Shown here piece by piece: positions 2,283 through 43,331 of a DNA stretch of 43,572 nucleotides (the stretch's first letter is position 1; each line of letters opens with the position of its first letter). Under the pieces are notes generated by a model. The model did not search any database, was not told the DNA's origin, and was given only the letters and a program-made list of their open reading frames with translations. The stretch covers positions 1-43,572 of the forward strand of contig VGZJ01000014.1 of NCBI GenBank assembly GCA_016872595.1, given 5' to 3'. Position numbers and translations under genes: made by a program. This DNA comes from Planctomycetota bacterium (lineage in GTDB: Bacteria > Planctomycetota > Planctomycetia > Gemmatales > Gemmataceae).

Positions 2283-3680
2283 ATGGAAACGATCAGCGTC
2301 GCCGACGCGCGCAAGGCCGAGGCGGTGGGCAAGCAGGTGCGCCTGCGCGGGTGGGTGCGGACCCGGCGTGACAGCAAGGGCGGGTTCAGCTTCCTCGAAC
2401 TGAACGACGGCTCGTGTCAGGGGAACGTGCAGGTCGTCGCGCCCGGCGAACTCGCCAACTACGAAGCCGTGGTGAAGAAGATTCCCACCGGCGCGAGCGT
2501 CAGCATCGACGGCGAGGTGAAGGCGTCGCCGGCGAAGGGACAAGCGACCGAGGTGCTGGCGTCGAAGGTCGAACTACTGGGCGACGCGGACGTGGACACG
2601 TTCCCGTTGCAGAAGAAGGGCCACAGCTTCGAGTTCCTCCGCGGCATCGCGCACCTGCGCCCGCGCACGAACACCTTCGGGGCCGTCGCCCGCCTGCGGC
2701 ACCAAGTGTCGATGAGCATCCACCAGTTCTTCCACGAGCGCGGGTTCTACTACGTCCACACGCCGGTCATCACCGCGAGCGACTGCGAGGGCGCGGGCGC
2801 GATGTTCCGCGTCAGCACCATCGACCCGGCCGCGCCGCCGAAGACCGAGGGCAAGGTCGATTACAAGCAGGACTTCTTCGGCAAGCCCGCGTACCTGACC
2901 GTGAGCGGCCAGCTTCAGGGCGAAGCATTCGCGTGCGCGCTGGGGAAGATTTACACCTTCGGCCCGACGTTCCGCGCCGAGAACTCGAACACCCCGCGGC
3001 ACCTCGCCGAGTTCTGGATGATCGAGCCGGAGATGGCCTTCTACGAGCTGACCGACAACATGGACTTGGCCGAGGCGTTCCTCAAGCGCATCATCGCCGA
3101 CGCGCTCAAGTTCTGCATGGAAGACCTGAAGTTCTTCGCGGAGCGCCTCGACAACAACAAGGAACTGTTCACCAAGTTGGAGAACGTGCTGAACAACCCG
3201 TTCAAGCGGGTCTCGTACACCGAGGGTGTGGACATCCTGCTGAAGAGCGGCAAGGCGTGGGAGTACCCCGTTGCGTGGGGCGTGGACCTGCAGAGCGAGC
3301 ACGAGCGCTACCTCGCGGAGCAGCACTTCAAGTGCCCGGTGATCCTGTACGACTACCCGCGCACGCTGAAGCCGTTCTACATGAAGGTGAACGACGACGG
3401 CAAAACCGTGCGCGCGATGGACGTGCTGGTTCCGGGCGTGGGCGAGATCATCGGCGGGAGCCAGCGCGAGGAGCGCCTCGACGTGCTGGAATCGCGCATG
3501 AAGGAACAGGGCCTCGAACCCGAAGGGTATAGCTGGTACTGCGACCTGCGGCGCTACGGCACGGTGCCGCACAGCGGGTTCGGCCTCGGCCTCGAGCGCA
3601 CGATCCTGTTCCTGAGCGGCATGGCGAACATCCGCGACGTGATCCCCTTCCCGCGCACGCCGGGGAACGCCGAGTATTGA
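2283..3680 (+). CDS. asnS: Asparagine--tRNA ligase
   Basis: 465 residues, class II aminoacyl-tRNA synthetase that charges tRNA-Asn in the cytoplasm. The N-terminal OB-fold anticodon-binding domain (about residues 15-105) reads [20 protein letters not shown]. The catalytic domain shows motif 2 as [15 protein letters not shown] and motif 3 as [16 protein letters not shown], followed by the typical C-terminal end [16 protein letters not shown]. Length matches bacterial AsnRS. The frame is open upstream to 2133, but that part crosses palindrome A and has no family similarity; [12 protein letters not shown] at 2283 is the natural start. The Shine-Dalgarno is weak (GAGAG). The right hairpin of palindrome A ends 12 nt upstream and could influence initiation. 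Confidence 0.96.
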
Positions 3681-3759
3681 CAAAGTAGTAGGCACACTCC
3701 GTGTGCCGTAGCTGTGTGCGAGGTTCAGCTACGGCACACGGAATGTGCCTACTACTTTG
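3681..3759. repeat. GTAG double-hairpin palindrome B (asnS / methyltransferase gap)
   Basis: Arms 3681-3714 and 3726-3759, 33 of 34 positions complementary, spacer 11 nt. Each arm holds GTAGTAG plus a 7-bp hairpin GGCACAC-TCC-GTGTGCC. It starts at the base after the asnS stop and ends 14 nt before the next ATG. The arm sequence is nearly identical to the palindrome at 13650-13723, ten kilobases away. Confidence 0.85.
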
Positions 3760-4988: not shown

Positions 4989-5797
4989 AGGAAACGGGCT
5001 ACGTTCTGGGCCAAAGTGAGCGCGCCGCGCGACGGCTGGAGCTGCAAGACCGGCACTTCGCCGCCCCGTCGGAAGCGCTGCTCGACGCGCTCGCGGTGTC
5101 GCCGGCGGATCGCGCGGTCGAACTCGGCTGCGGGCCGGGTGGCCTCACGAAGCGCATCGCCAAGCGCATCGGCGCGACCGGGCGCGTCACCGCGGTTGAT
5201 GCGTCCGACGGGCTGCTGAACGAAGCGCGGAAGGTGCTCGCGGGCGCGGGCAACGTGAGCTTCGTGCGCGCAGACGTGGCCCAACCGGGCGCGTGGATCG
5301 ACGGCGCGACCGTCGTACTGGGCCGCGCGATCCTGCACCACGTCCCGATGGCGGAGTTCCTGCTCGGTAGGCTGAAAGCGACACTCGCGCCCGGTACGCG
5401 AATCGGGTTCCTCGAACCGGACTTCCGCCGCCCGCTCATTGAGCTATCGCGCGCGCACGCGAAGCGCCCGGAACTGACACCGCTGCTCACCTTCGCAAAA
5501 GCGATCAACGACCTGTACTCCGCGTGGCGCATCTCCGGCGCGGTCGGCGCGTCGCTGACCCCGGCGATGCAGGACGCCGGGTTCGCCGACGTCCGGCATC
5601 AGTGGCACCCGTTCGCCACCGACGCCGACGTGCTGGAAAACATGGGCCTCATCTACGAAGAAGTGCGCGACACCTTCGCCGCGCTCGGCATCATCAGTTC
5701 GCACGACATCGACGCGGAGCAGATGAAATTGGCGGCGCTGACGCCGGGCGACTTGCCCCCGGTCTGGGGGCTGCACCAAGTGACAGCGTCCGTGTAG
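4985..5797 (+). CDS. Class I SAM-dependent methyltransferase (Methyltransf_11/25 type)
   Basis: 270 residues. Glycine-rich motif I VELGCGPGG at 45-53, acidic motif II VTAVDAS near 74-80, and LGRAILHHVPM in the motif IV region give a standard small-molecule methyltransferase of the UbiE-like superfamily. Substrate not identifiable. Translation starts within the stop of the previous methyltransferase (ATGA overlap), suggesting a two-gene unit. The stop codon TAG (5795-5797) is formed by the GTAG head of palindrome C, so the C-terminus TASV ends exactly where the repeat begins. Confidence 0.88.
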   Translation: MKETGYVLGQSERAARRLELQDRHFAAPSEALLDALAVSPADRAVELGCGPGGLTKRIAKRIGATGRVTAVDASDGLLNEARKVLAGAGNVSFVRADVAQPGAWIDGATVVLGRAILHHVPMAEFLLGRLKATLAPGTRIGFLEPDFRRPLIELSRAHAKRPELTPLLTFAKAINDLYSAWRISGAVGASLTPAMQDAGFADVRHQWHPFATDADVLENMGLIYEEVRDTFAALGIISSHDIDAEQMKLAALTPGDLPPVWGLHQVTASV

Positions 5798-5876
5798 GAT
5801 TGGACAAGGCTGTGCGCCGTCCCACCTTCTTCGAGGCGCTCGTGGTGGGACGGCGCACAGCCTTGTCCCACCCTAC
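5794..5876. repeat. GTAG double-hairpin palindrome C (between convergent genes)
   Basis: Arms 5794-5826 and 5844-5876, 31 of 33 positions complementary, spacer 17 nt. Each arm has the GTAG head and an ~8-bp hairpin closing on GTCCCACC. It lies tail-to-tail between the methyltransferase and the minus-strand gene ending at 5945, where it could act as a bidirectional terminator, although no U-tract follows. Its left head supplies the methyltransferase stop codon. Arm sequence matches the palindrome at 28409-28486 almost base for base. Confidence 0.85.
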
Positions 5877-12503: not shown

Positions 12504-13649
12504 TCAGACGGGCTTGACCGCGGGCGCGCCCGCGGTACCCACAGGTTCCACTTTATGAACCGGCCGTGCGGCCGGCCGCAACCGGAGCGACAGCGCGAGC
12601 GAAACCGCCCACACCCCGGACCCTACAAGCGCGTGCAGCGTCCGCGTCGCCCCGCTCTGCGGTGTCACCTTCACCAACTCGGCCCCGAACTTCGCCAGCC
12701 ACGCCTCGACGCCGAGCATCAGCTGAACGACCAGCAGCACCGCGAGCCACCGGGCGGCGCGCCCGGCCCGCGCGCGGGCGGCGGGGTCGGCGTACACGGC
12801 CCGCAACAGCCACACCGCCAGCGCCGTGGCAGCGAACGCCGTGAGGAAGTGCAACCGCTGCGGCAGCGGGCCGGGGAAGTGCCGCACCCACGCCCCGAAG
12901 ATCACCTGAATGAAGATCAGGTGCGCGAAAACGAGCGCGGCGCGGTGCAGCTTCCGGGCTTCGGCCACCGAGCCGTGGACCGCGGGCCGCGCGGTCGCCA
13001 CCGCGAGCCACGCCAGCAGCCCGAACACGACCTGCGCGAACACCCCGTGGAACGCCGCGAGGTCCGTGCCCACCAGTTCGTTCAGCTTCACGCGGAAGCC
13101 GCCGAGCAAGCCCTGCACCATGACCGCGACGAGCGCGAGCGCGCCGAGGACGCGCACGCCCTTCCCGGCCGAGCCCGCGAGGGTCGCGGCGATCATGAGG
13201 GCCGCGCCCGCGAGCGCGGTGAGCATCGGCTTTTGCGGGAGTTGTATCTCGTTGGCGTTCAGCTTGGTCTGCGCCATCAGCCCGCGGTGGAAGTCGCCGT
13301 AGCTCACGACCAAGACGAACAGGCCGGCGAGCGCGGCCCCGCGCGCCGCCTTCCGCGGCTCGGTCCACAGCGCGCCGACCGCGAGCACGATGACGATCCC
13401 GCCGACGGTCCAGCCGGCGATGCGGTGCGAGTGCTCGATGAAGAACGCGAAGTCCTCGCGGAACCGGGCTTTCTCGTCCGCGGTCGCGGTGCGGAACACG
13501 TACCACGGTTCCGTCGGCCACACGCGGTCCGCCATGCCCGCGCCGAAGCTGGTCACGAGCTGACCGATGGCGAGGAGCGCGAGCGTCGCGACGACGGCAA
13601 CAATCGCCCAGACGTGGAGCCAGCGCGGAACGGGTCGCGGGAGCGTCAT
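12504..13649 (-). CDS. ctaA: Haem A synthase (COX15/CtaA type)
   Basis: 381 residues, about eight transmembrane segments; oxidises haem O to haem A. The four conserved histidines fit the family: EHSHR (His73/His75), AAFHG (His201), RLHFL (His267) and RTLHA (His339). The glutamate preceding the first pair is present. The only sensible start is the ATG at 13649. Upstream in-frame codons lie in palindrome B2, which abuts the ATG directly (the sequence reads CTACTACT then ATG). The usual Shine-Dalgarno window is therefore occupied by the palindrome and contains no purine-rich site, so initiation must be coupled or unusual. Confidence 0.93.
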   Translation of the reverse strand: MTLPRPVPRWLHVWAIVAVVATLALLAIGQLVTSFGAGMADRVWPTEPWYVFRTATADEKARFREDFAFFIEHSHRIAGWTVGGIVIVLAVGALWTEPRKAARGAALAGLFVLVVSYGDFHRGLMAQTKLNANEIQLPQKPMLTALAGAALMIAATLAGSAGKGVRVLGALALVAVMVQGLLGGFRVKLNELVGTDLAAFHGVFAQVVFGLLAWLAVATARPAVHGSVAEARKLHRAALVFAHLIFIQVIFGAWVRHFPGPLPQRLHFLTAFAATALAVWLLRAVYADPAARARAGRAARWLAVLLVVQLMLGVEAWLAKFGAELVKVTPQSGATRTLHALVGSGVWAVSLALSLRLRPAARPVHKVEPVGTAGAPAVKPV

Positions 13650-13723
13650 AGTAGTAGGCACACTCCGTGTGCCGTTGCTGTGGTGAGGTTGAAAGCGACG
13701 GCACACGGAGTGTGCCTACTACT
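13650..13723. repeat. GTAG double-hairpin palindrome B2 (cytochrome c / ctaA gap)
   Basis: A 26-bp perfect inverted repeat (13650-13675 and 13698-13723), spacer 22 nt. Each arm is GTAGTAG plus hairpin GGCACAC-TCC-GTGTGCC, the same arm as palindrome B. It occupies every base between the cytochrome c stop codon (13726-13724) and the ctaA start codon (13649-13647). Confidence 0.9.
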
Positions 13724-28386: not shown

Positions 28387-28408
28387 CGGTTCCTCGGTCG
28401 CGTGTCTT

Positions 28409-28486
28409 GTAGGGTGGGACAAGGCTTTGCGCCGTCCCACCTCTTCTAGCTCTGGTGGGACGGCGCAAAGCCTTGTCCCACCCTAC
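28409..28486. repeat. GTAG double-hairpin palindrome D (actA / actB gap)
   Basis: A 33-bp perfect inverted repeat, arms 28409-28441 and 28454-28486, spacer 12 nt. GTAG head, hairpin stem GGTGGGAC/GTCCCACC, mirrored right arm ending CTAC. Same arm family as palindrome C (one base differs in the hairpin loop region). It lies 6 nt from the actA stop and 22 nt from the actB start. Confidence 0.9.
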
Positions 28487-28492
28487 AAAGCG

Positions 28493-36334: not shown

Positions 36335-36585
36335 ACCGGTCCCGCGCGGGGTTAGGTTTGTGCGACCTTGCGGCTTGGGTAATTTCGGTCAGCGGCATAG
36401 GAATGAATTGACGCCGGCCGCACGGGCGACTATCTTCTACCTGCGAGAATGTCGCCTGCCAACGGCGTTCTCCTCCCTCGCCCGCCGCAATTGCTGCCTG
36501 CCTCCACAGGCCTTCAGCCTGCCGTTGTTACGTTTTGATCCTTGCCCCAAAACTCAAGCCCACTGCCCCGACAGGAGTCCTGCCG

Positions 36586-37896
36586 ATGAATCTGTTGTCG
36601 CGCTGCGTCGGTTCCCCGTTGAACCGCCGCAACTTCCTGCACGTCGGGGCGATTGGTGCCCTCGGCCTGACCCTCGATCAGTACATGCGGCTCCAAGCCG
36701 CCCAGCCGCCGGCCGCGGCCAAGAAGCCGAAGGCCGAGGCGTGCATCCACATCTTCCTACCGGGTGGCTCCGCGCACCAAGAGAGCTGGGACCCGAAGCC
36801 GTTCGCCCCGGTCGAGTACCGCGGGCAGATGGCGACGACCAAGACCAAGATCGAAGGCGAAGTCTTCAACGAGTGCCTGACCAATACCGCGGCGCTGGCC
36901 GACCAGATCACCGTGTGCCGGGCCATGACGCACGGCGAGGCCGCTCACGAGCGCGGCACGCACAACATGTTCACCGGCTACCGGCCGAGTCCGGCGCTGA
37001 AGTTCCCCAGCATCGGGAGCGTCGTGAGCCACGAACTGGGCGTGCGGAACAACCTGCCGCCCTACGTCGCGGTGCCGAGCCAGCCGGCGCAGGACGCCGG
37101 GAGCGGCTACCTGTCGTCGTCGTTCGCGCCGTTCAGCCTCGGCTCCGACCCGGCCAACGGCGGGTTCCGCGTGCAAGACCTCGCGCTCCCGGCGAGCGTC
37201 ACCAACGACCGCTTCACCAACCGCAAGAGCATGCTGGACGCGGTCAACGCCCACTTCGCCGGTAAGGAGAAGTCGGACAACCTCGAAGCGATGGACAGCT
37301 TCTACCAGCGCGCCTACGGCCTGATCGCCAGCGAGAAGGCCCGCGAAGCGTTCGACATCAACAAGGAAACGCCGAAGCTCCGCGACGAGTACGGCCGCAA
37401 CGCCGCCGGCCAGCGGATGCTCATGGCCCGCCGGCTGATCGAAGGCGGCGTGCGGTTCGTCACCCTGACCTACGGCGGTTGGGACCTGCACGGCGGCATC
37501 GTCGGCGGCACGAAGAACCAGCTCCCGCAGTTCGACCAAGCGTTCGCCACGCTCATCACCGACCTGAAGCAGCGCGGGCTGTTCGACAGCACGCTCATCA
37601 TGATTTCGAGCGAGTTCGGCCGCACGCCCAAGATCAACGCGACCGCGGGCCGCGACCACTGGCCGAAGGTGTTCAGCGTGGTGCTGGCCGGCGGCGGCAT
37701 CAAGAAGGGCCTCATCTACGGCAAGTCGGACGCGACAGCGAGCGAACCCGACGAGGACGGGCTGACGGTCGAGGACTTGGCGCACACCGTCTACAACTGC
37801 CTCGGCATCGACGCCGACAAGAAGTTGATGAGCCCCGGCGACCGCCCCATCGACATCGTCCGCGAGGGTAAAACCCGCAAGGAACTGCTGGCGTAG
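36586..37896 (+). CDS. DUF1501 protein, Tat-exported (alkaline-phosphatase-like superfamily)
   Basis: 436 residues. Tat-like signal LNRRNFLHVGAIGALGL (12-28). Family blocks are FLPGGSAHQESWDPKP, RAMTHGEAAHERGTHNMFTG, LTYGGWDLHGGIVGG and SSEFGRTPKINATAGRDHWP, which carry the Asp/His residues expected for the alkaline phosphatase/sulfatase-like fold. Its biochemical role is unknown. DUF1501 genes occur in planctomycetes paired with PSCyt1/PSCyt2/PSD1 genes, as here. ATG 36586 has GGAG 8-9 nt upstream. The preceding gap (36335-36585) contains no gene and only degenerate repeat-like sequence. Confidence 0.93.
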   Translation: MNLLSRCVGSPLNRRNFLHVGAIGALGLTLDQYMRLQAAQPPAAAKKPKAEACIHIFLPGGSAHQESWDPKPFAPVEYRGQMATTKTKIEGEVFNECLTNTAALADQITVCRAMTHGEAAHERGTHNMFTGYRPSPALKFPSIGSVVSHELGVRNNLPPYVAVPSQPAQDAGSGYLSSSFAPFSLGSDPANGGFRVQDLALPASVTNDRFTNRKSMLDAVNAHFAGKEKSDNLEAMDSFYQRAYGLIASEKAREAFDINKETPKLRDEYGRNAAGQRMLMARRLIEGGVRFVTLTYGGWDLHGGIVGGTKNQLPQFDQAFATLITDLKQRGLFDSTLIMISSEFGRTPKINATAGRDHWPKVFSVVLAGGGIKKGLIYGKSDATASEPDEDGLTVEDLAHTVYNCLGIDADKKLMSPGDRPIDIVREGKTRKELLA

Positions 37897-37910
37897 TGGC
37901 CGAAGGCAGT

Positions 37911-38039
37911 TTCACCACAAAGGCACAACGCTCGCACAAAGTGTCACAGAGAAGACCGGAAGAGTGAGACTAAACAATGACGCCGCACCCGCGCTTTTCT
38001 CTGTGGTTCTTTGTGCTCGTTTTGTGCCTTTGTGGTGAA
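37911..38039. repeat. Inverted repeat H overlapping the start of the PPC-domain gene
   Basis: Outer arms are perfect over 18 bp (TTCACCACAAAGGCACAA at 37911-37928 with its complement at 38022-38039). Inward the match continues imperfectly through GCACAAAG and CACAGAGAA to about 37955 and 37994. AC/AG-rich repeats of this kind are scattered in many environmental bacterial genomes. The right arm is not intergenic: it lies within the next gene and encodes residues 7-21 of its signal peptide. Confidence 0.85.
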
Positions 38040-40487
38040 TCTTCGGTCTCAGCCGCGTCGCCGGCGTTCGGCGGCATCCAGCCGCGCGGGGCGCAGCGCG
38101 GCACCGAGGCCGTGCTCACCTTCCAAGGCGGGCGGCTCACCGACGCGCAGGAGGTGCTGGCGTACTACCCCGGCATCGCCGTCAAGAAGCTCGAAGTCGT
38201 CAACGACGCCGCGCTCAAGGTCACGGTCGCTATCGCCCCGGACTGTCGCCTCGGCGAACACGCCTTCCGAGTGCGCACCGCCAGCGGCGTGTCCGAGGTC
38301 CGCACCTTCTGGGTTGGCGCGCTGCCGGTGGTCGAAGAGGTCGAACCGAACAGCGAGTTCGACAAGCCGCAGCCGATCCCGCTCAACGTCACCGTTCACG
38401 GCGTTGTGCAGAACGAGGACCAAGACTACTTCGTCGTCGAGTGCAAGAAGGGCCAGCGCCTGTCGGTCGAAGTCGAGGGGATGCGCCTCGGTGTGGCGTT
38501 CTTCGACCCCTACGTCGCGATTCTGGACAGCAAACGGTTCGAGCTTGTGACCGGCGACGACTCGCCCACCGCGAACCAAGACGGCGGGTGCTCGGTGGTG
38601 GTCCCGGCCGACGGCAAGTACATCGTCCAGATTCGCGAGAGCGCGTTCGGCGGCAACGGCGCGTGCCAGTACCGGCTGCACATCGGCAACTTCCCGCGGC
38701 CCACGGCCGTTGTCCCCGCGGGCGGCAAGCCCGGCGAGGAACTGGAAGTGACGTTCCTCGGTGACCCCGCGGGGCCGATCAAGCAGAAGGTGAAACTGCC
38801 CGCGACCGCGGACGAACACTTCCGCGTTCACTGCACGACACCGGAAGGCACCCACCCCAACGGGTTCAAGTTCCGCGTCGCGAACCTCGCGAACGTGGTC
38901 GAGAGCGGCGCGAACGTGAGCGTCGCCACCGCGACCGCGGGCGTCGCGCCGGTCGCCTTCAACGGCGTGGTCGCGAAGCCGGCGGAAGTGGACTACTTCA
39001 AGTTCACCGCGAAGAAGGGCGAGACGTACGACTTCAACTGCTACGCCCGGCGGCTCGGTTCGCCCCTCGACCCGATCCTCTACATCGGCAACGCGGCCGG
39101 GGCGACGATCACCGGCAACGACGACAGTGGCGGGCCGGACAGCTACTTCCGGTACACGATCCCGGCCGACGGCGAGTACACGTTGTGGGTGCAGGACCAC
39201 CTGAAAAAGGGCGGGCCGGACTACTTCTACCGCATCGAGGTGTCGCCGGTCGCGCCGGGCGTCACGACGACGATCCCGCGCGTGGACGGCAACAACCCGG
39301 CGAACCAAGACCGCCAGACGATCACCGTGCCGAAGGGCGGGCGGTACGCGACGCTCGTGGTCGCCAGCCGCGCCGACTTCGGCGGGCCGCTGAACATCGG
39401 CATCGACAAGCTGCCGCCCGGCGTGACGCTGACCGCGGAGCAGATGGAGGCGGGCCAAGCGGTGATCCCGGTCGTGTTCGACGCCAAGCCGGACGCGGCC
39501 GTCGGCGGCTACCTCGCCACCATCACCGCGACCCACACCGACCCGAAAGCGCCGTTGCCGTCGCGCACCTCGTTCGACCCGGCGTTCGTGATTAACCAGC
39601 CGGGCCAAACGGTCTACGCCCGGCACGTCGTGGACCGCACCGCCATCGCGGTGTGCGACGCCGCGCCGTACTCGATCGAGGTCATCGAGCCGAAAGTGCC
39701 GCTCGTGCAGAACGGCTCGTACAACCTGCGGATCGTCGCCAAGCGCGCCGAAGGCTTCAAGGGCGCGATCACGGTGTTCCCGCTGTGGACCCCGCCCGGT
39801 CTCGGCATCCAAGGCTCCGGGGTCATCCCCGAAGGGCAAACCGAGTGCCTGCTGCCCATGAACGCCGCGCCCGGTGCCGCCGTGCGGAAGTGGAAGACGG
39901 CGGTTCACGCGGTCGCTGACGCCGGCAAGGGGCCGGTGTGGACCAGCAGCCAACTGTTCACCATCGACGTGACCGCGCCGGTCGTGTCACTGACGATGGA
40001 GCGCCCGGCGGTCGAGCAGGGCGCGAACACGCAACTGTTCTGCAAGGTGACGGTGCCCGCGCCGTTCGAGGGCAAGGCGAAGGTCACGCTCATCGGCCTG
40101 CCCGCCAAGACGACGACGCAGGTGATCGAGATCACGAAGGACACGAAGGAGTTCGCGTTCCCCATCGCCGCGGACAAGACCAGCCCGGCCGGGCAGCACA
40201 ACGTGTTCGCGCAAGTGGTGATCGAGCGCGGTGGCGAACTGATCACGGGCAACACCGGCGGCACGCAGCTCCGCATCGACGTGCCGCTGCCGCCGAAGGT
40301 GGCCGTTGTGCCGCCCGTACCGAACCCGATGACGCCCGTCGTGCCGAAACCGCCGGACCCGAAGATGCCGGAGAAGCGCCTGACGCGCCTCGAAAAGCTC
40401 CGCCTCGAAGCCGAAGAGCGCGAGAAGGCCGCCGCCGCGGGCACAACCCCGCCGCCCAAGAAGGAAGAGCCGCCGAAGAAGCCGTGA
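37977..40487 (+). CDS. Secreted protein with two PPC (pre-peptidase C-terminal) domains
   Basis: 836 residues. Signal peptide MTPHPRFSLWFFVLVLCLCG...SVSA, cleavage near residue 26; residues 7-21 are encoded by the right arm of inverted repeat H. After an N-terminal Ig/IPT-like stretch come two PPC beta-sandwiches, about 118-235 (VEPNSEFDKPQPIPL ... DQDYFVVECKKGQRL) and about 320-430 (KPAEVDYFKFTAKKGETYDF ... PADGEYTLWVQ). Several Ig-like segments follow, then a Lys/Pro/Glu-rich, coiled-coil-prone tail (about 795-836). No protease domain is present; PPC domains here probably serve binding at the cell surface. It follows the DUF1501 gene by 80 nt. There is no Met near residue 26 to offer another start. 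Confidence 0.9.
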   Translation: MTPHPRFSLWFFVLVLCLCGESSVSAASPAFGGIQPRGAQRGTEAVLTFQGGRLTDAQEVLAYYPGIAVKKLEVVNDAALKVTVAIAPDCRLGEHAFRVRTASGVSEVRTFWVGALPVVEEVEPNSEFDKPQPIPLNVTVHGVVQNEDQDYFVVECKKGQRLSVEVEGMRLGVAFFDPYVAILDSKRFELVTGDDSPTANQDGGCSVVVPADGKYIVQIRESAFGGNGACQYRLHIGNFPRPTAVVPAGGKPGEELEVTFLGDPAGPIKQKVKLPATADEHFRVHCTTPEGTHPNGFKFRVANLANVVESGANVSVATATAGVAPVAFNGVVAKPAEVDYFKFTAKKGETYDFNCYARRLGSPLDPILYIGNAAGATITGNDDSGGPDSYFRYTIPADGEYTLWVQDHLKKGGPDYFYRIEVSPVAPGVTTTIPRVDGNNPANQDRQTITVPKGGRYATLVVASRADFGGPLNIGIDKLPPGVTLTAEQMEAGQAVIPVVFDAKPDAAVGGYLATITATHTDPKAPLPSRTSFDPAFVINQPGQTVYARHVVDRTAIAVCDAAPYSIEVIEPKVPLVQNGSYNLRIVAKRAEGFKGAITVFPLWTPPGLGIQGSGVIPEGQTECLLPMNAAPGAAVRKWKTAVHAVADAGKGPVWTSSQLFTIDVTAPVVSLTMERPAVEQGANTQLFCKVTVPAPFEGKAKVTLIGLPAKTTTQVIEITKDTKEFAFPIAADKTSPAGQHNVFAQVVIERGGELITGNTGGTQLRIDVPLPPKVAVVPPVPNPMTPVVPKPPDPKMPEKRLTRLEKLRLEAEEREKAAAAGTTPPPKKEEPPKKP

Positions 40488-40863: not shown

Positions 40864-40910
40864 AACAACGCGGTACGGTCCCCGATTTCGACCGCATGAG
40901 GCTCACCGAT

Positions 40911-43331
40911 ATGCGTTTCGCTTACCTGCTCTCGCTCTGTGTCCTCGCCGGTTTCGGTGGCGATGTCCGCGCGCAGAAGGTCGCCGTGTACCCGCCCGAC
41001 ATCAACCTCGAAACGAGCCGCGACCGGCAGTCGTTCGTCGTGCAGCTCACGCAAGCGGACGGCATCACCCGCGACGTGACCGAACAGGCGCAGGTCGCGT
41101 TCGCCAACCCCGCGTTCGCGAAGCTCGACAAGTTCGCGGTCGTGCCCGTCGCGGACGGCACGACGGAAATGAGCGTCACCTTCGGCGGGCAGGTCGTGAA
41201 GGTGCCCGTGAAGGTCACCAAGGCGAAGGAGGACCGCGCCATCTCGTTCAAGCAGGACGTGATGCCGGTGTTCATGCGCGCCGGGTGCAACGTCGGCGGG
41301 TGCCACGGGGCCGCCCGCGGCAAGGACGGGTTCCGCCTGTCGCTGTTCGGGTTCGACCCCGAGGGCGACCACTACCGCCTGACGCGCGAGCTGAACGGCC
41401 GGCGCATCAACCTCGCCATCCCCGCGGAGAGCACGCTTGTCGAGAAGGCGATGGGGAGCGTGCCCCACACCGGTGGCGCGAAGATCAAGAAGGACGACGA
41501 GTACTACACCACGCTGATCCGCTGGCTCGAGGCCGACGCCCCGCTCGACAAGCCCGACATCGCCCTGCCGGTCAGCATGGAAGTGTTCCCGCCCAGCGCC
41601 GTGCTGGACGGTAAGGGCGAGAAGCAGCGCGTCGTGGTGCGGGCGAAGTACAGCGACGGCACCGACCGCGACGTGACCTCGCTCGCGCTGTTCCTCACCA
41701 GCAACGAGAACGCGGCCAAGATCGCCGCCGACGGCGACGGCTCCGTGACCGCCGGCGACCGCGGCGAGGCGTTCGTCATGGCCCGGTTCCACACCTTCAC
41801 CATCGGCGTGCCGTTCATCACACTGCCAAAGGCGCTCCAGTTCACGTGGCCCAACGCCCCCGAAAACAACTACATCGACACGCTCGTTCACAACAAGCTG
41901 AAGAAGCTCCGCATCGAGCCGAGCGGCACCTGCGACGACGCCACCTTCGTCCGCCGCGTGTACCTCGACATCATCGGCGAACTGCCCACACCCGACGAGT
42001 ACGCCCGGTTCATGGTGTCCACGCTGCCGACCAAGCGCGAGCACCTCGTCGACGAACTGCTCGACCGCAAGGAGTTCGCGGAACTGTGGGTGCTGAAGTG
42101 GGCCGAGTTGCTCCAGATTCGTTCGTCGAATCAGGTCAGCTACAAAGCGATGCTGCTCTATTACGGCTGGTTGCAAGACAAGATCGCCAAGAACGTGCCC
42201 ACCGACGAGTGGGTGAAGGAACTGCTGGGCGCGAACGGCGGCACGTTCAAGAACCCGGCCACCAACTACTACCAGCTCGAAACCGACGTGCTGAAGGTGA
42301 CGGAGAACGTCGCGCAGGTGTTCATGGGCATGCGCATCCAGTGCGCCCAGTGCCACAACCACCCGTTCGACCGCTGGACGATGGACGACTACTACGGGTT
42401 CGCGAGCTTCTTCACCCAGATCGGGCGCAAGGGCACCGACGACGCGCGCGAGCTGATCGTGTTCAACAGCGGCGGCGGCGAGATCGGCCACCCGGTGCGC
42501 AAGACCGCGATGCCGGCCAAGTTCCTCGGCGGCACCGCCAACGCCGACGTCGCCGGCAAGGACCGGCGCGTCGTCCTCGCCAACTGGCTCGCCAGCCCGG
42601 ACAACCCGTACTTCGCCAAGAACCTGTCGAACGTGGTGTGGAACCACTTCTTCGGGCAGGGCATCGTCAACGACGTGGACGACGTGCGCATCTCGAACCC
42701 GCCGTCGAACCAAGAACTGCTGGACGAACTGGGCAAGAAGTTCACCGGCTACAAGTACGACTTCAAGAAACTGGTGCGCGACATCTGCACCTCGCAGACG
42801 TACCAGCGCAGCACGCAGCCGACGAAGACCAACGAGGGCGACACGCGGAACTTCGCCCGCGGCCCGATCCGCCGCATCCGCGCCGAGACGATGCTCGACG
42901 TCATCACGCAAGTGACCGACACGAAGAACAAGTTCCAAGGGCTGCCGCTGGGCGCGCGGGCGGTGCAGATCGCCGACGGCGGCGTGAGTACCTACTTCCT
43001 CACGACGTTCGGCCGCCCCACCCGCGAAACGGTGTGCTCGTGCGAGGTGCGTCTCGAACCGACGCTGTCGCAGAGTCTGCACCTGCTCAACGGCGGCACC
43101 GTGGAGCCGAAGATCGCGCAGGGCAACATCGTCGGCAAGATGCTTCAGGACAAGAAGACCCACGCGCAGGTCATCGAGCACCTCTACGTGCGGTGCCTGT
43201 GCCGCGCCCCCAAGCCCGACGAACTAAAAACACTGTTGGCGCTCGTGGACAAGAGCACCGACAAGAAGCAGGCGCTGGAAGACGTGTTCTGGGCGATCAT
43301 GAACTCGCGCGAGTTCATGTTCAACCACTGA
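40911..43331 (+). CDS. PSCyt1-Big2-PSCyt2(DUF1549)-PSD1(DUF1553) planctomycete cytochrome-like protein
   Basis: 806 residues. Signal peptide MRFAYLLSLCVLAGFGGDVRAQ. An N-terminal beta domain is followed by PSCyt1 (about 108-215), whose haem-like site AGCNVGGCHG has four residues between the cysteines (Cys126, Cys131, His132). A Big2-type Ig domain follows (about 222-305, VFPPSAVLDGKGEKQ). Next are PSCyt2/DUF1549 (about 325-520) with canonical RIQCAQCHNHPFDRW (Cys478, Cys481, His482), and PSD1/DUF1553 to the end (NLSNVVWNHFFGQGIV, LHLLNGGTV). The function is not established; partner genes of the DUF1501 type suggest a periplasmic redox or polymer-processing role. I chose ATG 40911 because GAGG lies 9 nt upstream; ATG 40896 is the alternative. 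Confidence 0.93.
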   Translation: MRFAYLLSLCVLAGFGGDVRAQKVAVYPPDINLETSRDRQSFVVQLTQADGITRDVTEQAQVAFANPAFAKLDKFAVVPVADGTTEMSVTFGGQVVKVPVKVTKAKEDRAISFKQDVMPVFMRAGCNVGGCHGAARGKDGFRLSLFGFDPEGDHYRLTRELNGRRINLAIPAESTLVEKAMGSVPHTGGAKIKKDDEYYTTLIRWLEADAPLDKPDIALPVSMEVFPPSAVLDGKGEKQRVVVRAKYSDGTDRDVTSLALFLTSNENAAKIAADGDGSVTAGDRGEAFVMARFHTFTIGVPFITLPKALQFTWPNAPENNYIDTLVHNKLKKLRIEPSGTCDDATFVRRVYLDIIGELPTPDEYARFMVSTLPTKREHLVDELLDRKEFAELWVLKWAELLQIRSSNQVSYKAMLLYYGWLQDKIAKNVPTDEWVKELLGANGGTFKNPATNYYQLETDVLKVTENVAQVFMGMRIQCAQCHNHPFDRWTMDDYYGFASFFTQIGRKGTDDARELIVFNSGGGEIGHPVRKTAMPAKFLGGTANADVAGKDRRVVLANWLASPDNPYFAKNLSNVVWNHFFGQGIVNDVDDVRISNPPSNQELLDELGKKFTGYKYDFKKLVRDICTSQTYQRSTQPTKTNEGDTRNFARGPIRRIRAETMLDVITQVTDTKNKFQGLPLGARAVQIADGGVSTYFLTTFGRPTRETVCSCEVRLEPTLSQSLHLLNGGTVEPKIAQGNIVGKMLQDKKTHAQVIEHLYVRCLCRAPKPDELKTLLALVDKSTDKKQALEDVFWAIMNSREFMFNH

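Follow-up and report, generated by a model that had tools for sequence, protein, structure and literature searches.

Intergenic palindromes as apparent, repeatedly recruited sources of export signals for several unrelated secreted proteins of Gemmata-type bacteria

Introduction

How does a secreted bacterial protein come by an export signal whose codons lie in one arm of a dispersed palindrome? The question is raised by the gene of a PPC-domain protein in the window analysed here, a stretch of 43,572 nucleotides that forms one contig (C14) of a 6.8-Mb genome in 590 contigs. The genus of the source is taken as Gemmata; several of the genomes compared with it are drafts, and labels of kinship and family are used as assigned by the tools.

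Palindromic repeats translated within protein genes are known from Rickettsia, where the Rickettsia palindromic elements (RPE) are inserted inside existing reading frames. The repeat at the PPC gene resembles them in being a translated palindrome, but it replaces the N-terminus and brings the start codon. The closest precedent comes from Yersinia, in which RU-2, the Yersinia palindromic sequence, makes up part of the signal peptide predicted for YPO1552 (Delihas, 2007, PMC2759123; PMC2229807). A literature search on Gemmata palindromes and on the arm-encoded peptide found nothing.

Anatomy of the gene start

Eleven nucleotides after the stop codon of a DUF1501 gene, an inverted repeat begins that reaches into the PPC-domain gene (Table 1). 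Its arms, 37908-37958 and 37992-38042, measure 51 nt with 80% complementarity, and the highest-scoring core consists of 46-nt arms separated by a 43-nt loop. The DNA fold of this hairpin has a z-score of -6.75 against shuffles, none of 200 being as good. A left arm in the upstream gap, as proposed in a preliminary description of this DNA, is thus borne out, and the perfect complementarity claimed there for the outer 18 bp is found between 37911-37928 and 38022-38039. The same description had the repeat overlap the 5' end of the gene; the overlap stands, but the structure is better described as a single hairpin with the start codon in its loop. Once the in-frame stop (TAA, 37971-37973) is passed, this ATG, at 37977, is the earliest start available, and in the RNA fold of the hairpin the AUG is mostly unpaired (0.99/0.83/0.63). 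The other in-frame start candidates, GTG (38013) and TTG (38022), both lie within the right arm.

Table 1. Features of the PPC gene start and its surroundings, in window coordinates
Feature	Position	Strand	Basis
Upstream DUF1501 gene	36535..37896 (start approximate)	+	PF07394, E 6.7e-110; ORF list
Left arm, purine-rich, untranslated	37908..37953	+	Inverted-repeat search; dispersed family
Loop, containing ATG 37977 and GGAAGAG, a weak ribosome-binding-like stretch	37954..37996	+	Sequence; RNA fold
Right arm, pyrimidine-rich, translated as residues 7-22 (signal-peptide h-region FSLWFFVLVLCLCGE)	37997..38042	+	Sequence
Predicted 26-residue signal peptide, VSA/ASP cleavage by eye	37977..38054	+	Sequence; conserved mature start
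Secreted PPC-domain protein gene, 836 aa	37977..40487	+	PF04151, E 1.6e-13; close orthologues

The translated N-terminus reads MTPHPR-FSLWFFVLVLCLCGE-SSVSA/ASPAFGG, so that the hydrophobic core (residues 7-21) is the translation of the right arm, as had been stated. By inspection it has the parts of a Sec signal peptide, namely a basic n-region (MTPHPR), a core (FSLWFFVLVLCLCG, hydropathy 3.0) and a VSA/ASP site before a mature start, ASPxxGxIQPRG, that is conserved among orthologues. Residues 1-26 would accordingly be read as a Sec signal; throughout, signal peptides are called from hydropathy, from AxA-type sites and from the conservation of mature starts. A lipoprotein signal peptide was considered and rejected, as inspection found no lipobox ([LVI]-x-[GAS]-C) and L, not G, A or S, precedes the core cysteines. 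A search for relatives of the PPC protein among solved structures found none.

Dispersal of the repeat

The arm pattern TTCACCACARAGRCACA has 57 matches in the genome, against one for the reversed control, and a targeted, not exhaustive, census gathered 39 distinct hairpins of the family. A typical family hairpin is intergenic, and the gene that follows has its first ATG a few tens of nucleotides past the right arm. In three of the 39 the arm is used as a signal peptide with the start in the loop; this rules out a start in the loop as the rule for all family hairpins and makes use as a signal peptide a minority fate in this genome. The gene L323 (glutamyl-tRNA synthetase-like, named by its N-terminal sequence only) begins past the arm. 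L094 and L099, two apparent signal-peptide starts from a scan of 400 kb, were set aside, as in both an internal ATG past the arm looks like the true start. A search for known RNA elements returned only sub-threshold microRNA-type matches and a weak narK match.

Beyond this genome, most genus members carry dozens of intergenic copies of the repeat, the arm pattern matches genus-wide with zero matches in controls, and the same arm sequence also occurs in many phyla and in archaea. Given that the same genomes contain many intergenic copies of the repeat, and that many phyla have it too, the direction of transfer was most likely from repeat to gene.

Turnover of the start region among orthologues

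A related protein is present in all 41 genomes searched, and 16 of 19 genus members, the source genome included, have a close orthologue (identity 74-100%). Most genus orthologues have a repeat-type signal peptide, LCVLCVLCGE, in common. In the source genome (G000), G016, G012 and G008 a peptide of the repeat type comes with a left arm and a start in the loop, and in G007, G001, G004, G006, G005 and G015 the peptide (SLCVLCALCGE and similar) is found with no left arm. Other hairpin families occupy the same start elsewhere: in G002 the arms are perfect over 43 bp and belong to the GCACAAAA family (72 arm copies in that genome, none in the control), in G010 they belong to the dispersed GTGAAGGGG family, and in G009 they are probably of a CGCAAAG type with weaker arms. 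Different peptides are found in G011, G017 and G018, the last of which is the closest orthologue, yet has a signal peptide that is barely repeat-like.

Homologous signal peptides in orthologues without the repeat had been named in the preliminary description as a sign that the repeat derived from the gene. Such peptides were found in L011, L013-L016 and L020, which have no left arm, but they are themselves written in repeat DNA (CTCTGCGTTCTCTGCG..GGTGAA), which speaks for the repeat as the source. Farther out in the Planctomycetia, the signal peptides of orthologues (L025-L037) are of ordinary, unrelated kinds, and for this reason the repeat would have taken over from an existing export signal rather than created export.

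The replacement is seen most directly between close relatives. G008 and G010 are sisters in the tree, and their mature proteins are 97.9% identical (mature coding DNA 93.9%), yet from the upstream stop to the mature start they have a different hairpin and a different peptide. In the pairs G000/G018 and G005/G009 the same segment is 48% identical, against 86-90% for the mature coding DNA (90% in G000/G018). These segment swaps indicate that the gene was secreted earlier and that its export signal was replaced by repeat DNA more than once.

The explanation that we favour for this anatomy and dispersal, for the turnover between close orthologues and for the recurrence across genes and species described below is that a dispersed intergenic palindrome gives the core of a Sec signal, read from the loop ATG through the right arm and replacing an older signal peptide; we regard it as very probable. 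A dispersed palindrome of Gemmata-type genomes would have been placed between the upstream stop codon and the PPC gene. The ribosome would start at the loop ATG and continue into the pyrimidine-rich right arm, which in one frame (common subtype LCVLCVLCGE; here FSLWFFVLVLCLCGE) would yield the hydrophobic core of the signal peptide, while the loop would provide a short basic n-region, and the arm end and next codons the cleavage region. The gene would already have been secreted, its older signal peptide being displaced by the repeat. The earlier proposal of a non-coding dispersed palindrome as the source of the predicted export-signal core is supported, with the start codon in the loop.

The same design before other genes

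A start in the loop, with the arm as signal peptide, was also found in further PPC-type proteins (L141, L143, L155, L174, L267), PQQ_2 propellers (L147, L167, L131, and L177 in the source genome), PF00144 hydrolases (L172, L130, L198), DLH-type hydrolases (L151, and L317 in the source genome), a DPPIV_N protein that draws on the GTGAAGGGG family (L335) and an Isosphaeraceae DUF1549/1553 protein (L208); for each kind of protein one member was searched against Pfam, and the remaining members were assigned by matching N-terminal sequence. Arm-type signal peptides without a left arm occur in a WD40 protein (L395), in DUF1549-type operon partners (L408, L412) and, in another phylum, in a Mariprofundus DUF1302 protein (L288). 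All credible coding cases of the named scan read the hydrophobic LCVLCVLCGE frame; a second frame (SAFSAVSAVK) is used by L317, L151 and L397, and the third runs into a stop at GGTGA in the arm. Of about nine arm-pattern sites in G004, five are signal peptides, which suggests that peptides may be kept there while hairpins decay. No clearly cytosolic gene with a translated arm was seen among the cases collected, an absence that would fit purifying selection.

The gene that follows the PPC gene (DUF1549/DUF1553) has a signal peptide, MRLTDMRFAYLLSLCVLAGFGGDVRAQ (40896..40976, + strand), that resembles a degenerated version of the arm-derived peptide; a left arm was not seen. The signal peptide of its G012 orthologue is MRLFDMRLAYLLSLCALCALCGEPVFGQ, and the repeat arm is still recognisable in the DUF1549/DUF1553 signal peptides of G012 and G009 (the operon partners named above).

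Base composition goes some way to explain why such arms suit export signals. Pyrimidine arms reach a hydropathy of 2.0 in 46% of frames, whereas random genomic 45-mers do so in 2% and purine arms in 0%, and at least one hydrophobic frame is present in 86% of pyrimidine arms, against 6% of random genomic 45-mers. Since shuffled pyrimidine arms are hydrophobic in 30% of frames, with at least one such frame in 62% of arms, composition accounts for much of this hydrophobicity. Pyrimidine-rich arms can thus be regarded as pre-adapted as h-regions, and one would come ready-made with a hairpin that lies just upstream of a secreted gene and has a loop ATG.

A bolder proposal, which we consider rather unlikely but worth recording, is a portable signal-peptide cassette in which ribosome-binding site, start and signal peptide form one palindromic unit that is copied or swapped among secreted-protein genes. 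Left arm, loop and right arm of the G012 orthologue and of a G003 paralogue share 81% identity across 122 nt (E 2e-26), and the match of this paralogue to the window protein is only 37%; wherever searches with loop plus arm brought back the full loop, it stood upstream of a secreted-protein gene. Together these observations hint at transfer of the whole cassette. Alternatively, only the arm may have been copied and then exapted in the ordinary way, or paralogues may have recombined at their N-termini.

Competing explanations

It could be that the RNA hairpin is the selected feature, a long stem that shows the ribosome-binding site and the AUG in its loop and tunes the translation of secreted proteins, with hydrophobic coding secondary. 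We consider this improbable. The folds are strong (-77 to -102 kcal/mol, AUG mostly unpaired, in the cassettes of G000, G002, G012 and G016), and G012 and G008 share 30 identical nucleotides of left arm (L018 versus L017, left arm and loop) despite 92% identity of the mature coding DNA; an effect of the hairpin on translation is possible. However, most family hairpins are intergenic with the gene start past the arm, and the right arm of G008 has diverged from its unchanged left arm (inverted-repeat score 20, against 28.5 in G012). The hairpin also appears dispensable, six orthologues having lost, or never had, the left arm yet kept the peptide. Because of these six, and because the G008 arms drifted apart, selection seems to rest on the peptide, and we infer that the peptide is maintained by exaptation and by selection on the peptide rather than on the hairpin.

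An origin of the dispersed repeats, or of the left arm, from a pre-existing signal peptide by copying or template switching is very unlikely. The homologous peptides of orthologues without a left arm would agree with such an order, but it leaves aside the dozens of intergenic copies in most genus members, the copies in many phyla and archaea, the unrelated hairpin families at the same spot in G002 and G010, and the unrelated signal peptides of distant orthologues. Slightly less credible still is a mis-assigned start, in which translation would begin downstream and the arm would be an untranslated leader. The first ATG does lie a few tens of nucleotides past the arm in most family hairpins, and the ribosome-binding site ahead of 37977 is weak; yet 504 nt pass after 37977 before another in-frame ATG, in agreement with the earlier remark that no alternative Met exists near the cleavage site, orthologues begin at the corresponding position (several with an AGGAG ahead of it) with the frame preserved in all, and the conserved mature start requires a signal peptide. 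A chance likeness of Leu/Cys-rich signal peptides to the repeat deserves practically no credence: pyrimidine-rich DNA in any order is fairly hydrophobic, as the shuffled arms attest, but the match holds at the DNA level, synonymous sites included, and comes with a paired left arm, and the dispersed copies and genus-wide matches against zero controls already exclude chance.

Relation to known repeats

Taking the repeat as the source of the signal, the likeness to the Yersinia precedent is close: a dispersed repeat lies in frame, relatives have unrelated signals, and the peptide is a predicted one. The Yersinia case involves one main gene and one repeat family with a 168-bp continuous ORF, whereas the arrangement described here has its start codon in the loop, extends over many genes, draws on at least two repeat families, and shows one signal peptide exchanged for another between close orthologues. 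Like REP and REPIN sequences, the hairpin repeat is a dispersed extragenic palindrome in many copies, but its arms (~30-50 nt) are longer than typical REPs, its loops are mostly 13-85 nt, and a GTAG/CGTC tag is not established. The genome has five Y1_Tnp (PF01797) matches of the RAYT (TnpA-REP) type, and at the four of these loci examined no flanking hairpin of this family was found. Of the three marks of a MITE (terminal inverted repeats, target-site duplication and a cognate transposase), the inverted repeats are present here.

Intergenic repeat DNA thus appears to offer a concrete, repeatable route from 'junk' palindromes to protein parts in bacteria: an intergenic hairpin beside a secreted gene can become its export signal, since in most arms the base composition renders one strand hydrophobic. 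Closely related species that differ in their hairpins put the process within direct reach of experiment, and repeat-derived export signals should be anticipated in gene calling and signal-peptide annotation of Planctomycetota.

Other palindromes

Across the 400 kb of the source genome that were scanned without bias, other hairpin families are numerous, chiefly in intergenic gaps. A second dispersed family, GTAGTAGGCACACTCCGTGTGCCGT, occurs in the window at 3680-3758 and 13649-13722 and elsewhere in the genome at L092, L102 and L108; a third, of the GGGTGGGACAAGGCTTTGCGCCGTCCCACC type, occurs twice in the window (5792-5876 and 28406-28487). L050 (1438-1699) is a near-perfect hairpin with 113-nt arms, in which repeats of the CACAGAG and GCAGATTGCGCAGATGGACGCAGATT types stand head to tail, suggesting that its compound arms may be held identical by some DNA-level process. 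In a member of the Chloroflexota (Ardenticatenia), L285 is an ORF of tandem LCVLCVLCGESISAPS units from the same arm repeat as that of the PPC gene, and is probably not a gene.
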